Source: Sphingomonadales bacterium (GTDB taxonomy: Bacteria > Pseudomonadota > Alphaproteobacteria > Sphingomonadales > Sphingomonadaceae). Taken from it: 64,000 bases of DNA. Under the pieces are notes generated by a model. It worked only from the letters and a program-made list of their open reading frames with translations. It had not been told where the DNA came from and did not search any database. Positions 12,220-20,155 of the stretch are shown here, piece by piece; position 1 is the first letter of the stretch, and each line of letters opens with the position of its first letter. The stretch covers positions 1-64,000 of the forward strand of contig JAAURJ010000006.1 in NCBI GenBank assembly GCA_012032285.1, written 5' to 3'. The translations under genes and the position numbers were made by a program.

Positions 12220-13752
12220 ATGTCCGCCAATATTGCCGAAGTTGAACGCCGCCGTGCCGCAGCGCATTTGGGGGGAGGGCAGAAACGCATTGATGCGCAG
12301 CACGCCAAAGGACGGCTGACAGCGCGCGAGCGGCTGAATGTGCTGCTTGATGAAGGCAGTTTTGAAGAGTTGGATATGTATGTCGAACATAATTGCGTGG
12401 ATTTTGGTATGGCCGACACCAAAATTCCTGGCGATGGTGTTGTAACGGGCAGCGGCACAATTAACGGCCGGCTGGTCTATGTCTACAGTCAAGATTTTAC
12501 TGTTTTCGGTGGCTCGCTGTCTGAACGCCAGGCTGAGAAAATCTGCAAGGTGATGGACAATGCGATGAAGGTCGGGGCACCTGTCATTGGCCTCAACGAC
12601 AGCGGCGGCGCTCGCATACAGGAAGGCGTGGCGAGCCTTGGAGGTTATGCCGAGGTGTTCCAAAGGAATGTGCTGGCATCAGGCGTCGTTCCGCAAATCA
12701 GCGTGATTATGGGGCCATGTGCAGGCGGCGCGGTCTATTCGCCTGCCATGACAGACTTCATATTCATGGTGAAAGATTCAAGCTATATGTTTGTAACTGG
12801 ACCGGAAGTGGTCAAAACAGTGACCAATGAAGTGGTCACACAGGAAGAACTTGGCGGGGCAGTCACCCACACTGCTAAATCAGGGGTTGCCGATAATGCA
12901 TTTGAAAATGACATAGAAGCGCTGTTCGCTGTGCGGGATTTCTTTGACTATTTGCCAGAGAATAATCAGGCCGGCGTGCCGGAGCGGCCCAGCAATGACC
13001 CTTGGGACCGTATAGAAGATAGCCTTGACACGTTGATCCCGCCATCAGCCAATCAGCCTTATGACATGCATGAGCTGATCCGCAAAACCTTTGATGAGGC
13101 TGATTTTTTTGAGGTGCAGCCCGCCCATGCCGGCAATATCCTATGCGGTTTTGGCCGGATTGAAGGGCGCACTGTGGGCATTGTCGCCAATCAGCCGATG
13201 GTGCTTGCAGGATGTCTGGACATTAACGCCTCCAAAAAAGCCGGGCGCTTCGTGCGTTTTTGCGACGCCTTTGAAATCCCAATCGTCACCTTTGTCGATG
13301 TCCCCGGCTTCCTCCCCGGCGTGGGGCAGGAGCATAATGGCATCATCAAGCATGGCGCAAAGCTGCTCTTCGCCTATGCCGAAGCGACCGTACCCAAGAT
13401 TACCGTCATCACGCGCAAAGCCTATGGCGGGGCCTATGACGTTATGGCGTCAAAGCATCTGCGCGGCGACCTGAACTATGCCTGGCCCACCGCCGAAATC
13501 GCGGTGATGGGCGCAAAGGGCGCGGTGGAGATCATCTTTCGACATGAAAAAGACGACCCCGAAAAAATCGCCGAGCGCACACAGGAATATGAAAACCGCT
13601 TCGCCAACCCCTTTGTGGCGGCGCAAAAAGGCTTTATCGACGAGGTGATCTATCCGCATTCGACGCGGAAACGCGTGGCGTTGGGGCTAAGGAAGCTGCG
13701 GAACAAGGCGTTGGAGAACCCCTGGAAAAAGCATGATAATATTCCGCTATGA
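12220..13752 (+). CDS. pccB: Propionyl-CoA carboxylase beta subunit
   Basis: PccB is the carboxyltransferase half of propionyl-CoA carboxylase, moving CO2 from biotin to propionyl-CoA to give methylmalonyl-CoA. The 510-residue protein has family length and motifs: [55 protein letters not shown] and [10 protein letters not shown]. The ATG at 12220 follows GAGGGAGAGGC; an in-frame extension upstream has no ribosome binding site. It heads the cluster that also holds mce, scpA and pccA, so the full path from propionyl-CoA to succinyl-CoA is encoded here. A palindrome about 60 bases upstream may control it. Confidence 0.96.
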
Positions 13753-14245
13753 GTAACCGCGAATCTGCAACGATATTGATCCAAAATTTCGATGGTCGAT
13801 CTGAGCCGTGCGACCTCAAGTTTGAGGTCTCTCACTATAGCGAGGTGATGAAATCAGAAACGCCAACATTTGGTCAGCAGATTTGGCATGGCAACGATGC
13901 CTTTCACGCGCTTGAGCTTTTTCGTCGAAAATCGAACCACAAGGATGGCGAACACTTTGCAATGGGTCTCGGAAGAATGCTTACCCGTCAGGTATGTGCC
14001 GCGATATGGAGAGAGGGTTTATGCTATACCCTATTCCGTCAGGCGGGCCTCCAGCTTTAAAGACGTTTGAACCGGCACCCATTGAGGAAATCGGCACGGT
14101 GGATGAACAATTAGCAGTTTGGCACGAGTGGTTAGATCAAGCGAAACGTCAGCGACAAGTAGATGCGTCGGGCTTTGCTGCATCGTCTGACGATCCTAAA
14201 CCTAATAGGTCGAGTTTTTGGAATAGAATCTGGAAGAGAAGATGA
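13749..14245 (+). CDS. Uncharacterised protein between pccB and mce (one frameshift)
   Basis: I do not recognise this protein with confidence. It starts at an ATG overlapping the pccB stop by four bases (ATGA), so it is coupled to pccB. A first frame runs to near 14018 and a second carries [18 protein letters not shown] to the stop at 14243-14245. One T missing from the run at 14018-14020 joins them into a 165-residue protein. The central part ([13 protein letters not shown]) loosely recalls the small DUF6968-type proteins. The C-terminal third is polar and ends in NRIWKRR. It has no signal peptide or membrane segment. Its stop overlaps an ATG at 14242 that begins a partial copy of mce. Confidence 0.6.
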
Positions 14246-14293
14246 AACCAAACCGCCCCAACCATATCGGCGTCGCACTGCCTCACTACTGTC
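14242..14293 (+). pseudogene. Partial duplicate of the mce 5' end
   Basis: Reading from the ATG at 14242 gives [14 protein letters not shown]. This is a diverged copy of the first 14 residues of the intact epimerase at 14810 (MKLGRLNHIGVATP). Over the first 42 bases, 33 are identical between the two copies. After that the sequence runs into a REP-like hairpin and all similarity to mce is lost. The copy overlaps the preceding stop as ATGA, the arrangement expected of the original operon junction. It appears to be the stub of mce left upstream of an inserted cassette. Confidence 0.7.
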
Positions 14294-14386
14294 TCGTTAT
14301 TGCGAGGAGCGTAGTGACGAAGCAATCCAGTGTTACGCAGGACTGCTCTGGATTGCCGCGCTCCCTTTGGTCGCTCGCAATGACGA
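14294..14386. repeat. REP-like palindromic repeat, copy 1
   Basis: The unit begins TCGTTATTGCGAGGAGCG, continues to GAAGCAATCCAG, has a variable centre, and returns as CTGGATTGCCGCGCTCC to GGTCGCTCGCAATGACGA. The two arms are complementary over most of their length, so a long hairpin can form. A second full copy is at 14714-14799 and a half copy at 20091-20120. The motif (cATTGCGAG...GCAATCCAG) is a widespread dispersed repeat type in proteobacterial genomes. Confidence 0.85.
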
Positions 14387-14401
14387 ATGTTTGTTAGTTA
14401 T

Positions 14402-14698
14402 ATGAAAAATCCGTGTGTCTATATGATGGCCAATAGGCGAAATGGCGCGGTTTATACTGGCGTGACATCTGCTTTAGTCAAACGCGCCTATCAGCATCGA
14501 GAGGGGCTGATTGACGGTTTCACCAAGCGGTATGGCTGCAAATTGCTGGTCTGGTATGAGCAGCATTCGACTATGGATTATGCGATAGCAAAGGAAAAGC
14601 AGATCAAGGGCGGATCGCGGCTCAAGAAGCTTGCGATGATTGAGGCGATGAACCCGGATTGGAAGGATTTATATGATGATATTGCGCATGGCTTTTGA
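14402..14698 (+). CDS. GIY-YIG domain nuclease-like protein
   Basis: This 98-residue protein is a single GIY-YIG domain of the small UPF0213/YhbQ-like type. The motif appears as VYMMANRRNGAVYTGVTS, followed by the conserved arginine and histidine in KRAYQHREG, then FTKRYGCKLLVWYE, the glutamate in AKEKQIKGG and MNPDWKDLY. GIY-YIG domains cut or nick DNA; the target of this subtype is not established. The start is the ATG at 14402, 15 bases inside a longer open frame, because family members begin at about this point. It lies between two full REP-like hairpins and between a truncated and an intact copy of the mce start, as if carried there by a mobile cassette. Confidence 0.88.
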   Translation: MKNPCVYMMANRRNGAVYTGVTSALVKRAYQHREGLIDGFTKRYGCKLLVWYEQHSTMDYAIAKEKQIKGGSRLKKLAMIEAMNPDWKDLYDDIAHGF

Positions 14699-14713
14699 AC
14701 AGCAGAGAATTTG

Positions 14714-14799
14714 TCATTGCGAGCGCAGCGAAGCAATCCAGTGCAGTTTTGCGCTGCTCTGGATTGCCGCGCAGCCTTTGGCTGCTCGCAATGACGAGG
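14714..14799. repeat. REP-like palindromic repeat, copy 2
   Basis: It starts GTCATTGCGAGCGCAGCG, has GAAGCAATCCAGTGCAG, a short centre, then CTCTGGATTGCCGCGCAG and GCTGCTCGCAATGACGAG. It is the same repeat family and orientation as copy 1, with a closely matched pair of arms. It ends about 10 bases before the start codon of the intact mce gene and so forms its immediate upstream region. Confidence 0.87.
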
Positions 14800-14809
14800 T
14801 TATGGGGCT

Positions 14810-15247
14810 ATGAAACTAGGCCGCCTGAACCATATCGGTGTCGCTACGCCTTCCATCGCGGACAGCATCGTCTTTTACCGCGACGTCATGGGTGCGACGA
14901 AAATTCATGAACCGTTTGACCTGCGCGACCAAGGCGTGAAGATATGCTTTGTCGATACGCCGACGCATTCGGGTATGGATGGTACGCAGATTGAGTTGAT
15001 CGAGCCGCTGCCGGGGAACGCCTCCATCGCGTCCTTCCTTGCAAAGAACCCGCAGGGCGGGCAGCATCATCTTTGTTATGAGGTGCCGGATATCCACATC
15101 GCCAAGGCCGAATTTGAGGTCATGGGCAAGCGCGTGTTGGGGGAACCACGTATTGGGGCGCATGGCACGCTTATCTTTTTTGTACACCCGGGGGATATGG
15201 GCGGTGTGCTGACCGAAATTATGGAGACGCCGAAAAACGGCCATTAA
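14810..15247 (+). CDS. mce: Methylmalonyl-CoA epimerase
   Basis: The epimerase converts (S)- to (R)-methylmalonyl-CoA, between the carboxylase and the mutase. The 145-residue protein is a complete glyoxalase-fold enzyme: LNHIGVATPSIADS with a metal-binding His, the ELIEPL segment (Glu), QHHLCYEV (His) and a C-terminal glutamate in LTEIMETP. It lies in the propionate block between pccB and scpA. Its 5' end has a diverged partner 568 bases upstream (see 14242), and its leader is a REP hairpin, so its expression may differ from the ancestral coupled arrangement. An unusual amount of foreign-looking sequence separates it from pccB. Confidence 0.94.
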   Translation: MKLGRLNHIGVATPSIADSIVFYRDVMGATKIHEPFDLRDQGVKICFVDTPTHSGMDGTQIELIEPLPGNASIASFLAKNPQGGQHHLCYEVPDIHIAKAEFEVMGKRVLGEPRIGAHGTLIFFVHPGDMGGVLTEIMETPKNGH

Positions 15248-15305
15248 GCTATACTGTCATATGGGTTTTAATCAAAGTGACGATTGAAAATATTTTGGAG
15301 GAAAA

Positions 15306-16091
15306 ATGAGCAATTATAATAATATTACACTCGATATTTTAGATAATGTTGCAACAATAACCTTAAATGTCCCGGAACGGCTTAATGCCTGTTCGCTTGG
15401 CATGGCGGACGAGATTAATGATGCATTAGACAGGCTTGATGGCGCAAGGGCGCTTGTCCTTACGGGGGCTGGCAAGGGTTTTTGTTCCGGTGCCGATCTG
15501 TCGAGCGGACGTGATAGCAGCATTTCCGGCGGGCAGGGCAGTTATCGTGCCCTGACGCAGCGATATAACCCGCTCATGGTAAAGCTGGCTAATCTCAATA
15601 TTCCTGTAATTACTGCGGTGAACGGTCCTGCGGCGGGTGTCGGTTGTTCAATTGCGCTATGCTGTGATTTTACCATTGCCAGCGAAAATGCCTATTTCCT
15701 TCAGGCCTTTGTGAATATTGGGTTGGTTCCCGATGGCGGTGCGAGCTGGGTTCTGCCGCGTTTAATTGGCAAAGCACGGGCGACGCAGATGATGATGCTG
15801 GGAGAGAAAATCGCCGCTACTCAGGCGCTGGATTGGGGGATGATTTATAAGGTAACTGCGCCCGATGCATTATTGGATGAGGCCAAGGCATTGGCTCAGC
15901 GGCTCGCCAGCGGACCTACGATAGCGCTCGGCATAATGCGGGCGAATATTCGCAAAGGACTGGATACCGACTTTACAAGCGCCCTGATGCAGGAGGCCGA
16001 AGGGCAGCGTGTGGCGGGGGACAGCAGCGATGCCTTTGAAGGCGCTGTTGCGTTCCTGCAAAAGCGTAAAGCGGAATTTAAGGGGCAATAA
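15306..16091 (+). CDS. Enoyl-CoA hydratase/isomerase family protein
   Basis: The 261-residue crotonase-fold protein has the family signature region [21 protein letters not shown] and the oxyanion-hole segments [12 protein letters not shown] and [10 protein letters not shown]. It resembles PaaG-type and short-chain enoyl-CoA hydratases; the exact substrate cannot be set from sequence. A strong ribosome binding site, TTTTGGAGG, precedes the ATG. Its stop overlaps the mutase start by one base (TAATG), so the two are coupled, which suggests a role in making or handling short acyl-CoAs that enter the methylmalonyl route. Confidence 0.9.
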
Positions 16092-19074: not shown

Positions 19075-20155
19075 ATGACCGAAGTTCGCAATGATTGGAC
19101 ACGCAACGAAATATCGGTGTTGTTTGACCTGCCCTTTACCGAGCTTTTGTTTCAGGCGGCAAGTGTTCACCGCGCCCATCACAAGCCAGATCAGGTGCAG
19201 TTATGCACTTTGCTCAGCATAAAAACCGGCGGGTGCCCGGAAGATTGCGGATATTGCAGTCAGTCTGTCCATGCCGACGAGCGGGGTGGAGGCGACCAAG
19301 TTGATGGATGTGCGCGCGGTGCTGCAATCTGCGGCGCAGGCAAAGGATCGCGGATCGCAGCGCTTCTGCATGGGTGCCGCTTGGCGTAATCCAAAGAACC
19401 GCGATATGCCTGCCATAGTCGAGATCGTGAAGGGCGTGCGCGATATGGGCATGGAAACGTGCATGACATTAGGAATGCTTAGCCCAAAACAGGCGGATAT
19501 GCTGGCCGAAGCGGGTCTGGATTATTATAATCATAATATCGACAGCAGCCCGGAATATTATGAAAAAGCTATTTCGACCCGTAAGATGCAGGACAGGCTT
19601 GACACTTTATCTGAAGTACGACGTGCGGGAATCAATGTGTGCAGCGGCGGGATAGTTGGGATGGGCGAAACGCGCGAGGACCGCGTTGGTTTTATTCATA
19701 CGCTCGCCACCTTGCCAGCGCATCCCGAAAGCGTGCCGGTGAATGCGCTGGTGCCGATTAAGGGCACAGTGTTGGGCGATATGCTCGCTGATACGCCGAT
19801 GGCAAAGATCGACGATATTGAATTTGTTCGCACCGTTGCCGCCGCGCGTATCACCATGCCGATGAGTATGGTCAGGTTGTCCGCTGGCCGCGAAAGTATG
19901 AGCGAGGCGGCACAGGCGCTATGTTTTATGGCGGGGGCAAACAGCATCTTCACCGGAGACAAGCTGCTCACCGCGCCCAATGCGGGTGATGATAGCGATG
20001 CTGCGATGTTTGCGCGTTTGGGGTTGAGAGCGTTGGATGGTGAGGAGCCGCTGCGCACGGAGAAGGCAATCCAAACTGGCGGGCTGGGCGCTGGATTGCT
20101 TCGCTCCGCTCGCAATGACGAAACAGGGAACGACGGATGTTTAACAAGATTCTAA
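19075..20155 (+). CDS. bioB: Biotin synthase (one frameshift; C-terminus extended by a REP repeat)
   Basis: BioB is a radical-SAM enzyme that inserts sulfur into dethiobiotin. The cluster cysteines are in the motif [11 protein letters not shown], and [31 protein letters not shown] and [10 protein letters not shown] are typical. The frame shifts near 19275-19286 by one extra base, most simply one G in the run 19283-19286. The corrected product is 359 residues, about 25 longer than usual. The extra part after [10 protein letters not shown] is translated from a REP-like repeat that overlaps the gene end. Placement between scpA and pccA makes sense because PccA needs biotin. It ends inside the first codons of pccA. 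Confidence 0.9.
20091..20120. repeat. REP-like repeat, half copy in the bioB 3' end
   Basis: The sequence CTGGATTGCTTCGC through CTCGCAATGACG is one arm of the same repeat family found at 14294 and 14714. A short complementary segment, GCAATCCA, lies at 20066-20073, and TGGATTGC at 20092-20099 can pair with it. The copy is translated as the last residues of BioB and stops just before the pccA start at 20137. Confidence 0.75.

Follow-up and report, generated by a model that had tools for sequence, protein, structure and literature searches.

A single-domain GIY-YIG nuclease gene bordered by inverted CGTC-type REPs at a pccB-mce junction, and a candidate partner enzyme for these repeats

We analysed a 64,000-nucleotide (nt) stretch of contig JAAURJ010000006.1 from a Sphingomonadales bacterium (the window; all coordinates are its own, and the 2.78 Mb genome it comes from is labelled G000). 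Upstream of the methylmalonyl-CoA epimerase gene mce, the window carries a compact cassette in which a small gene for a single-domain GIY-YIG nuclease lies between two inverted pairs of repetitive extragenic palindromes (REPs), and the 5' end of mce is present on both sides of this cassette (Table 1). Small GIY-YIG genes and matching REPs often occur together in the genus and in many phyla. This pairing of enzyme and repeat is a real finding and makes the nuclease a candidate dedicated partner of the CGTC-tagged REPs; it was observed directly, as were the anatomy of the locus, a junction and a duplication that both recur, and, for one parallel case, conflicting trees. We think it probable, with some reserve, that an Slx1-like nuclease drives its own CGTC-type REPs and that the REP-GIY-REP cassette was stacked into this junction by one-sided recombination.

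G000 contains four small GIY-YIG genes, and a further GIY-YIG domain inside a 648-residue open frame that is presumably UvrC. REPs of the window's family stand near the window's gene only (one of the four). Two of the others have REPs of their own, of the CGTCATGCTGAACTTG type (C51) and of the CGTCATTCCCGCG type (C90), and the more distant C7 has only a weak inverted repeat (score 25). In 45 genomes of the genus, 59 small GIY-YIG loci were scored for inverted repeats that pair the 200 nt upstream with the 200 nt downstream, with a threshold of >29 set by the peak score of 29 in 237 shifted windows within the same loci. A strong inverted flanking repeat was present at 47 of the 59 loci compared with 1 of 27 neighbouring genes (Fisher p 8e-12). 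Most of 18 cassettes inspected have a REP within ~60 nt of the open reading frame (ORF) on each side, mirrored and with the tag outward; some, including the window's, have a dimer on each side, and the right side of L043 is decayed.

The same arrangement extends well beyond the genus. GTDB species genomes were scanned with the GIY-YIG alignment, and the best 80 of at least 570 loci, from many phyla, were taken; 79 were usable (L187 was excluded for a short flank, and four control windows for containing N). At 54 of the 79 loci inverted flanking repeats score above the 99th percentile set by 418 shifted controls, and at 42 above the control maximum; they were found at 2 of 87 neighbouring genes (Fisher p 2e-21 against 54/79). 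An outward-tagged hairpin on both sides distinguishes 36/79 GIY-YIG loci from 2/87 neighbours. Counting any tagged hairpin gives 65/79 versus 22/87, so it is not unusual for other genes to have a single REP nearby, and it is the pair that is special. A family-level search of 397 genomes sampled from a larger group found a match at 1e-28 in 95 of them; the 29 best, all new loci, together with the window, G036 and G037, make up 32 close relatives. The window's REP motif (any of five 8-9-nt words within 200 nt, required on both sides) borders 31 of these 32 compared with 1 of 126 shifted control windows. The association with this REP family is thus very strong; its absence would have spoken against the initial annotation. 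The sole exception, L347, has borders of the CGTCACCCC type. A strong inverted pair is present in 27 of the 32. Enzyme similarity and REP similarity are correlated both in the genus (Mantel rho 0.43) and in the broad set (rho 0.30; 0 of 2000 permutations in each).

The window's REPs carry the tags of the CGTC class, with TGTC at 14712-14715, CGTT at 14295 and GACG (the reverse of CGTC) at both right ends, and like that class they form head-to-head dimers and are present in multiple copies. The left and right REPs share a 44-nt part that is 91% alike. The family combines ATTGC/GCAAT with an inner part that varies and a tail of CCAG, to which an 8-9 bp stem is not cleanly fitted; the F3 units of relatives match the stem of CGTC REPs by eye (ATTCCCGC-GAAA-GCGGGAAT-CCA). 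Folded as single-stranded DNA, the left dimer has a z of -3.4 and the right dimer a z of -8.5, and 0 of 200 shuffles fold as well; a single unit (z 0.35) folds no better than shuffles. A strict pattern for the family finds 7 copies in G000, a low number, and 0 for the reversed control. A third REP of the family lies at 20093-20119 on the minus strand, within the 3' end of an ORF that we take to encode biotin synthase. In other genomes (G006, G004, G003), CGTCACCCTGAACTTG-family dimers (L136-L172) are mostly near 75-80, 89-91 and 143-146 nt long; the longer of them might have arisen from cassettes by internal deletion.

REP family F4 is present in 44 of the 45 genus genomes. Its copy number is higher in genomes with the cognate cassette than in those without (median 38 versus 12, p 0.003), and the same is true of F3 (3.5 versus 0, p 0.0006) and of F1 (2 versus 0, p 0.006, with only three cassette genomes), in a comparison that ignores shared descent and includes some incomplete genomes. 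These figures leave out the cassettes' own REPs (all REPs within 300 nt of a GIY-YIG gene were discarded). The Y1 transposase domain (PF01797) gave no match in G000 and matches in only 4 of the 45 genomes; because Y1 transposases are mostly absent, a REP-associated tyrosine transposase (RAYT) is unlikely to be the mobiliser in this genus.

The protein encoded between the REPs belongs to the GIY-YIG superfamily by its PF01541 match above the cut-off and its conserved Tyr, Arg and Glu, residues with active-site roles in these enzymes. Y7, Y18 and R28 are invariant in 49/49 alignment rows, and E65 is kept in at least 90%. An AlphaFold2 model computed with the 49 aligned sequences comprises one confident domain (predicted local distance difference test, pLDDT, 94.2); an alignment-free run (pLDDT 43) was not used. 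Among solved structures, Foldseek puts UPF0213, Slx1 and the UvrC N-domain closest in fold, with weak scores (top match 2.5e-3, none in the PDB at E 0.001), and profile comparison places two UPF0213 proteins closest. Ratios of nonsynonymous to synonymous substitution are 0.07-0.25 in the 11 computable of 14 pairs of relatives, which indicates that purifying selection acts on the gene. Its presence is patchy, with a GIY-YIG match in 29/45 genus genomes. The window's protein has a single Pfam domain and no extra DNA-binding domain. A group I intron endonuclease model matched 23 of the 49 relatives (best E 5e-6), the window's protein not among them, and Rfam found no intron in 13800-15400 (its one match was at chance level); with no intron and a single domain, the protein does not qualify as an intron or intein homing endonuclease. 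A phage or defence-system reading of the locus was dropped, with no PHROGs or PADLOC match. A structure-selective nuclease would fit palindromic DNA.

Table 1. Features of the pccB-mce junction in the window (aa, amino acids)
Feature	Coordinates	Strand	Basis or remark
pccB (presumed), propionyl-CoA carboxylase beta	12220..13752	+	upstream border of the junction; listed ORF from 12181, ATG at 12220
Small ORF, 103 aa, between pccB and mce	13749..14060	+	ORF listing
Small ORF, 83 aa, overlapping the 103-aa ORF; stop overlaps the upstream mce ATG	13994..14245	+	
mce 5' relic (upstream copy)	14242..14283	+	33/42 identity to 14810-14851
Left REP, inverted pair of GTCATTGCGAG-type repeats, tags outward	14295..14385	.	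folding, motif
Single-domain GIY-YIG nuclease gene, 98 aa	14402..14698	+	PF01541, 2.9e-13
Right REP, second inverted pair of the left REP's family	14712..14796	.	sequence comparison, folding
mce (full length), methylmalonyl-CoA epimerase	14810..15247	+	TIGR03081, 1.4e-33

The two mce starts align without gaps (79%) at a spacing of 568 nt. Re-measurement reproduced the identity given by the initial annotation, and two further elements of its description were found as stated: two REP-like hairpins with an intact GIY-YIG gene between them, on which sequence, folding and Pfam agree, and the overlap, as ATGA, of the upstream mce ATG with the stop of the preceding ORF. The left REP starts 11 nt beyond the 42 nt of the relic, and by reading the upstream copy extends perhaps, with gaps, to ~14294, where the REP begins. 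The relic's reading frame enters the REP and never reaches mce. The full-length mce scores 116.1 bits against an NCBIfam cut-off of 114.95. A second in-frame ATG is available to the GIY-YIG ORF at 14387. Neither of the small ORFs upstream of the relic has a Pfam or NCBIfam match. G042 has similar pieces to 13749-14245 in shifted frames and with weak similarity, and given these pieces one of the two overlapping ORFs may be a frame-shifted gene. The name pccB for the upstream border follows the label of the initial annotation rather than a family scan.

We compared 38 pccB-mce junctions, in all of which the pccB ORF adjoins mce (41 genomes had mce; three were excluded for contig ends or a split). 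The spacer is 11-12 nt in 17 of them and at least 60 nt in 21. A second mce start occurs in four junctions, all among the 21 with long spacers, and encloses a different cargo in each: REP-GIY-REP behind a 42-nt duplicate in the window, REPs of two other families in G022 (31 nt), another repeat in G024 (45 nt), and in G006 (86 nt) a non-REP cargo with an antitoxin-type ORF by eye. The duplicated stretch starts at the ATG in all four, and with lengths ranging from 31 to 86 nt the idea of a fixed break at mce nt 42 was dropped. The initial annotation had counted two mce starts in relatives lacking the cassette as a point that would speak against its interpretation; three such genomes exist, each with other cargo, whereas the 17 junctions with 11-12-nt spacers have no room for a second start. 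By reading, the pccB-mce and sucB-lpd junctions hold different small ORFs by species, like exchangeable cargo (L013, L014, L022, L039, L290, L293, L300).

No gene-start duplicate was found in 31 accD-folC junctions, 23 of them with a spacer of at least 60 nt, or in 30 sucB-lpd junctions, only four of them with such a spacer, and long direct repeats flank none of 40 REP dimers at a level exceeding the control's 99th percentile. The duplication is thus not produced by REP insertion itself. In a test of 51 cassettes the window's mce duplicate, with a score of 42, lies above chance (the 99th percentile of cross-pairs is 25), and seven cassettes exceed that percentile (the window, L056, L096, L054, L102, L001 and L092). 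L056 reflects a neighbouring REP element, L096, L054 and L102 are REP sequence by eye, and L001 is a gene-start duplication. Target-site duplication as a general route, one of the two offered by the initial annotation, was dropped after the tests on the 51 cassettes and 40 dimers.

At accD-folC, G040 carries a cassette and G030 a different one at the same junction. By reading of 30 genomes there, nine have a single palindrome, four have half of it and four have a 12-nt spacer; in 12 there is a REP, a REP dimer or a remnant, for the most part F4. The single palindromes (L256-L285), TTGTCATTCCCGCG...CGGGAATGACAA and in some cases decayed, resemble the joined outer REP halves of the G040 cassette and could be excision scars or empty targets. 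At sucB-lpd only G030 has a cassette among 30 genomes, and 26 spacers are shorter than 60 nt. Cassette presence therefore varies at fixed sites.

The 32 window-type cassettes lie in 16 contexts, defined by common neighbouring genes on short flanks. Eleven are in the window's context, all downstream of pccB, in this genus and six others; mce follows in nine and is absent from the examined stretch in L328 and L044. Eight of the eleven show no duplication. L323, from another genus, has the window's layout of pccB, small ORF, mce 5' relic, REP-GIY-REP and mce, and in L328 a DUF808 5' relic precedes the cassette and the DUF808 gene start appears again behind it. In L321 and L327 the cassette stands directly before mce with no duplication, and in L013 and L039, for example, a small ORF alone precedes mce. 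Since both kinds of allele exist, stacking one on the other would yield the layout of the window. The suggestion of the initial annotation that the cassette moved as a unit holds in that the REP-GIY-REP block is real and recurrent; its mobility is something we infer.

The mce and pccB trees conflict in one case. The G024 mce beyond the duplicate groups with G018 (100/98), and the G024 pccB falls in a different clade (100/98). The earlier suggestion that the second copy came from another strain thus has tree support in G024, but none in the window's genome. Of the two routes originally proposed, recombination is the better one, given the recurrence at the junction, the architecture of L323 and the G024 trees. 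Taken alone, the mce duplication is a recombination scar of modest interest.

Gene-end duplicates accompany other cassettes. C51 of G000 (= L001) has a duplicated biotin-carboxylase 5' end (the N-terminus) with REPs of another family, and with the window, L323, L328, L251 (a Nitrospira record), L186 (a Cloacimonadota record) and the 3' cases L216 and L226 it makes up the set. A screen of 164 GIY-YIG loci gave matches of at least 48 at 34, sorted by eye and not blind: 7 are gene ends, and the other 27 are peptides encoded by REPs or unclear cases. L186 was added by DNA comparison. In the control of 132 genes there were five matches in three loci (L240, L221, L243), of which L240 appears REP-encoded. 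L221 has a 62-nt direct repeat (1491-1552 and 2318-2379, 85% alike) outside the GIY-YIG cassette. The REP tag lies, by reading, exactly on a GTC codon of the target only in L323 and L328; GTC is mce codon 21 in 20 of the 38 genomes, and the landing of the tag on a target GTC is suggestive only.

In the model that we favour, we infer each molecular step, along with the specificity of the nuclease, the mobility of the cassette and the roles of donor and recipient. Its cognate palindrome, or the DNA adjoining it, is most likely what the nuclease recognises and cuts, and this cutting would drive the copying of the whole cassette as well as of REP dimers that lack a gene, a role that RAYT supposedly plays for GTAG REPs. 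At the junction, a donor allele pccB-cassette-mce would recombine into a recipient allele pccB-small ORFs-mce. The event would start with the recipient mce being cut or broken within its 5' end, and the repair would use donor DNA that has the cassette immediately upstream of mce. The right side would be joined by homology within mce and the left side by end joining of the outer REP end to a point ~40-55 nt into the recipient mce, stranding one mce 5' end upstream and leaving a whole mce downstream. Where the left side also finds homology, in pccB, the cassette would be inserted cleanly, the state seen in most pccB-linked relatives. On this account the two mce starts would differ because one stems from the donor and one from the recipient, with drift of the relic in addition. 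A wider generalisation may also hold, although we put it forward tentatively and could well be wrong: that, across bacteria, CGTC REPs owe their mobility to single-domain GIY-YIG nucleases dedicated to them, the cassettes homing to operon junctions beside gene ends, with one-sided repair leaving a duplicated end that contains donor sequence.

Several observations weigh against these proposals. No movement of a cassette was observed. Sixteen of the 45 genus genomes lack a GIY-YIG match and all 16 have some REP; the GIY-free G004, G012, G019 and G028 carry 40-50 F4 copies, and with cassette copies removed, 28 of 36 F1, 55 of 96 F3 and 514 of 1143 F4 REPs lie outside cassette genomes. Such REPs could be remnants, or have moved otherwise. 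A strong inverted pair was not found at 25/79 broad and 12/59 genus loci, and the Mantel association is weaker for pairs below 60% identity (41 of 2000 permutations in the genus and 104 of 2000 in the broad set; 0 of 2000 pooled). Over 42/42 nt the G024 relic matches the start of mce in G021, a genome outside G024's pccB clade, so that either copy may be the resident one. In G000 the mce and pccB trees do not conflict and thus do not point to a donor from outside its own clade. The left junction is exactly at the REP tag only in L323 and L328 and is offset in the window; in C51 it is, by reading, inside the REP element at a common GCCGC. Gene-end duplicates occur at 8/164 cassettes versus 3/132 controls (p 0.36), an excess that is not significant, so that such duplication is not established as a hallmark of the cassettes. 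The G024 relic and the control duplications together weaken the account of donor and recipient.

Three other explanations deserve consideration. The GIY-YIG gene could be a free-standing homing endonuclease gene that targets REP palindromes already in place and inserts copies of itself there, the REPs being moved otherwise. Cassettes do look like REP dimers that have a gene at their centre, many REPs are in genomes with no cognate cassette, and the single palindrome read at accD-folC in 9/30 genomes may be an empty target or a scar. But the matching of enzyme and REP, and the higher REP numbers in genomes with the enzyme, suggest a benefit to the REPs as well, and Y1 transposases, the only transposases searched for, are rare in the genus; we regard this explanation as unlikely.

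If the cassette had simply inserted into mce and made a long (42-60 nt) target-site duplication, the near-identical layouts of the window and L323 would be accounted for. This route is very improbable in view of the 40 REP dimers, none with direct repeats above the control, the four genus duplicates that all begin at ATG and vary in length, the non-REP cargo of one mce case (L032), and the three cassettes read at accD-folC and sucB-lpd, which have no such duplication. We attach as little credence to a host repair nuclease of Slx1/UvrC type that shares only joint descent with REPs acting as transcription or mRNA-stability elements. The nearest folds and the purifying selection would suit such an enzyme, and COG2827 genes are discussed as possible repair genes in Caulobacter in the part of PMC1839093 consulted. 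Its patchy distribution, the 16 contexts of its 32 relatives, the rarity of paired inverted REPs at neighbouring genes (2/87) and the different REP families carried by paralogues within one genome count against this explanation.

Among known systems, GIY-YIG homing endonucleases share with the cassette the type of enzyme, insertion at a conserved gene and the duplication or replacement of a gene end; mobile ORFs with GIY-YIG domains in fungal mitochondria replace gene ends. The cassette differs in having no intron, intein or extra DNA-binding domain, in its bacterial chromosomal location and in its palindromic borders. Slx1-like, COG2827 and UPF0213 proteins resemble the window's protein in size, fold and domain. 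The survey of these proteins links some standalone members to a methyltransferase gene (Dunin-Horkawicz 2006, PMC1564403); in the portion of its text consulted there is no link to REPs and the string 'palindrom' is absent. Among the open-access papers listed in a literature search, which left subscription papers and preprints aside, none tied GIY-YIG genes to REPs, and the consulted part of RepRanger 2025 (PMC12306157) has no mention of transposase, RAYT or nuclease.

RAYT/REPIN systems pair GTAG REPs with a Y1/HUH TnpA-REP transposase. CGTC-tagged REPs, known from five phyla and including Neisseria dRS3 (= CGTC-1) and Rickettsia RPE-4/RPE-6, are defined by a CGTC, TGTC or CCTC tag, an 8-9 bp stem from AT, a loop of 4-5 and a CCA tail, and in the part of the source consulted they seem to lack a dedicated transposase, with no RAYT or IS200 gene flanked by them (Di Nocera 2013, PMC3733652). 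The REPs described here share with them the CGTC/TGTC tag, the CCA-type tail, head-to-head dimers and several families per genome, and differ in flanking a GIY-YIG gene and, in the window, in a stem for which 8-9 bp is not a clean fit. In a Neisseria gonorrhoeae record (L219), a small GIY-YIG gene has CGTCATTCCCGC-type repeats on either flank. The pairing makes the question of the missing transposase of CGTC REPs directly testable. If the model is correct, it would give a function to a common small GIY-YIG family that has none, and would hint at how cassettes sit in conserved operons yet spare the next gene. With RAYT/REPIN the cassettes have in common a small nuclease gene between inverted REPs, scattered gene-less REP dimers and the matching of enzyme and REP (PMC3733652, as far as consulted); they differ in their GIY-YIG nuclease, in their CGTC/TGTC tags and in a host genome, G000, with no Y1_Tnp match, and at a few hundred bp they would represent the GIY-YIG counterpart of RAYT/REPIN.

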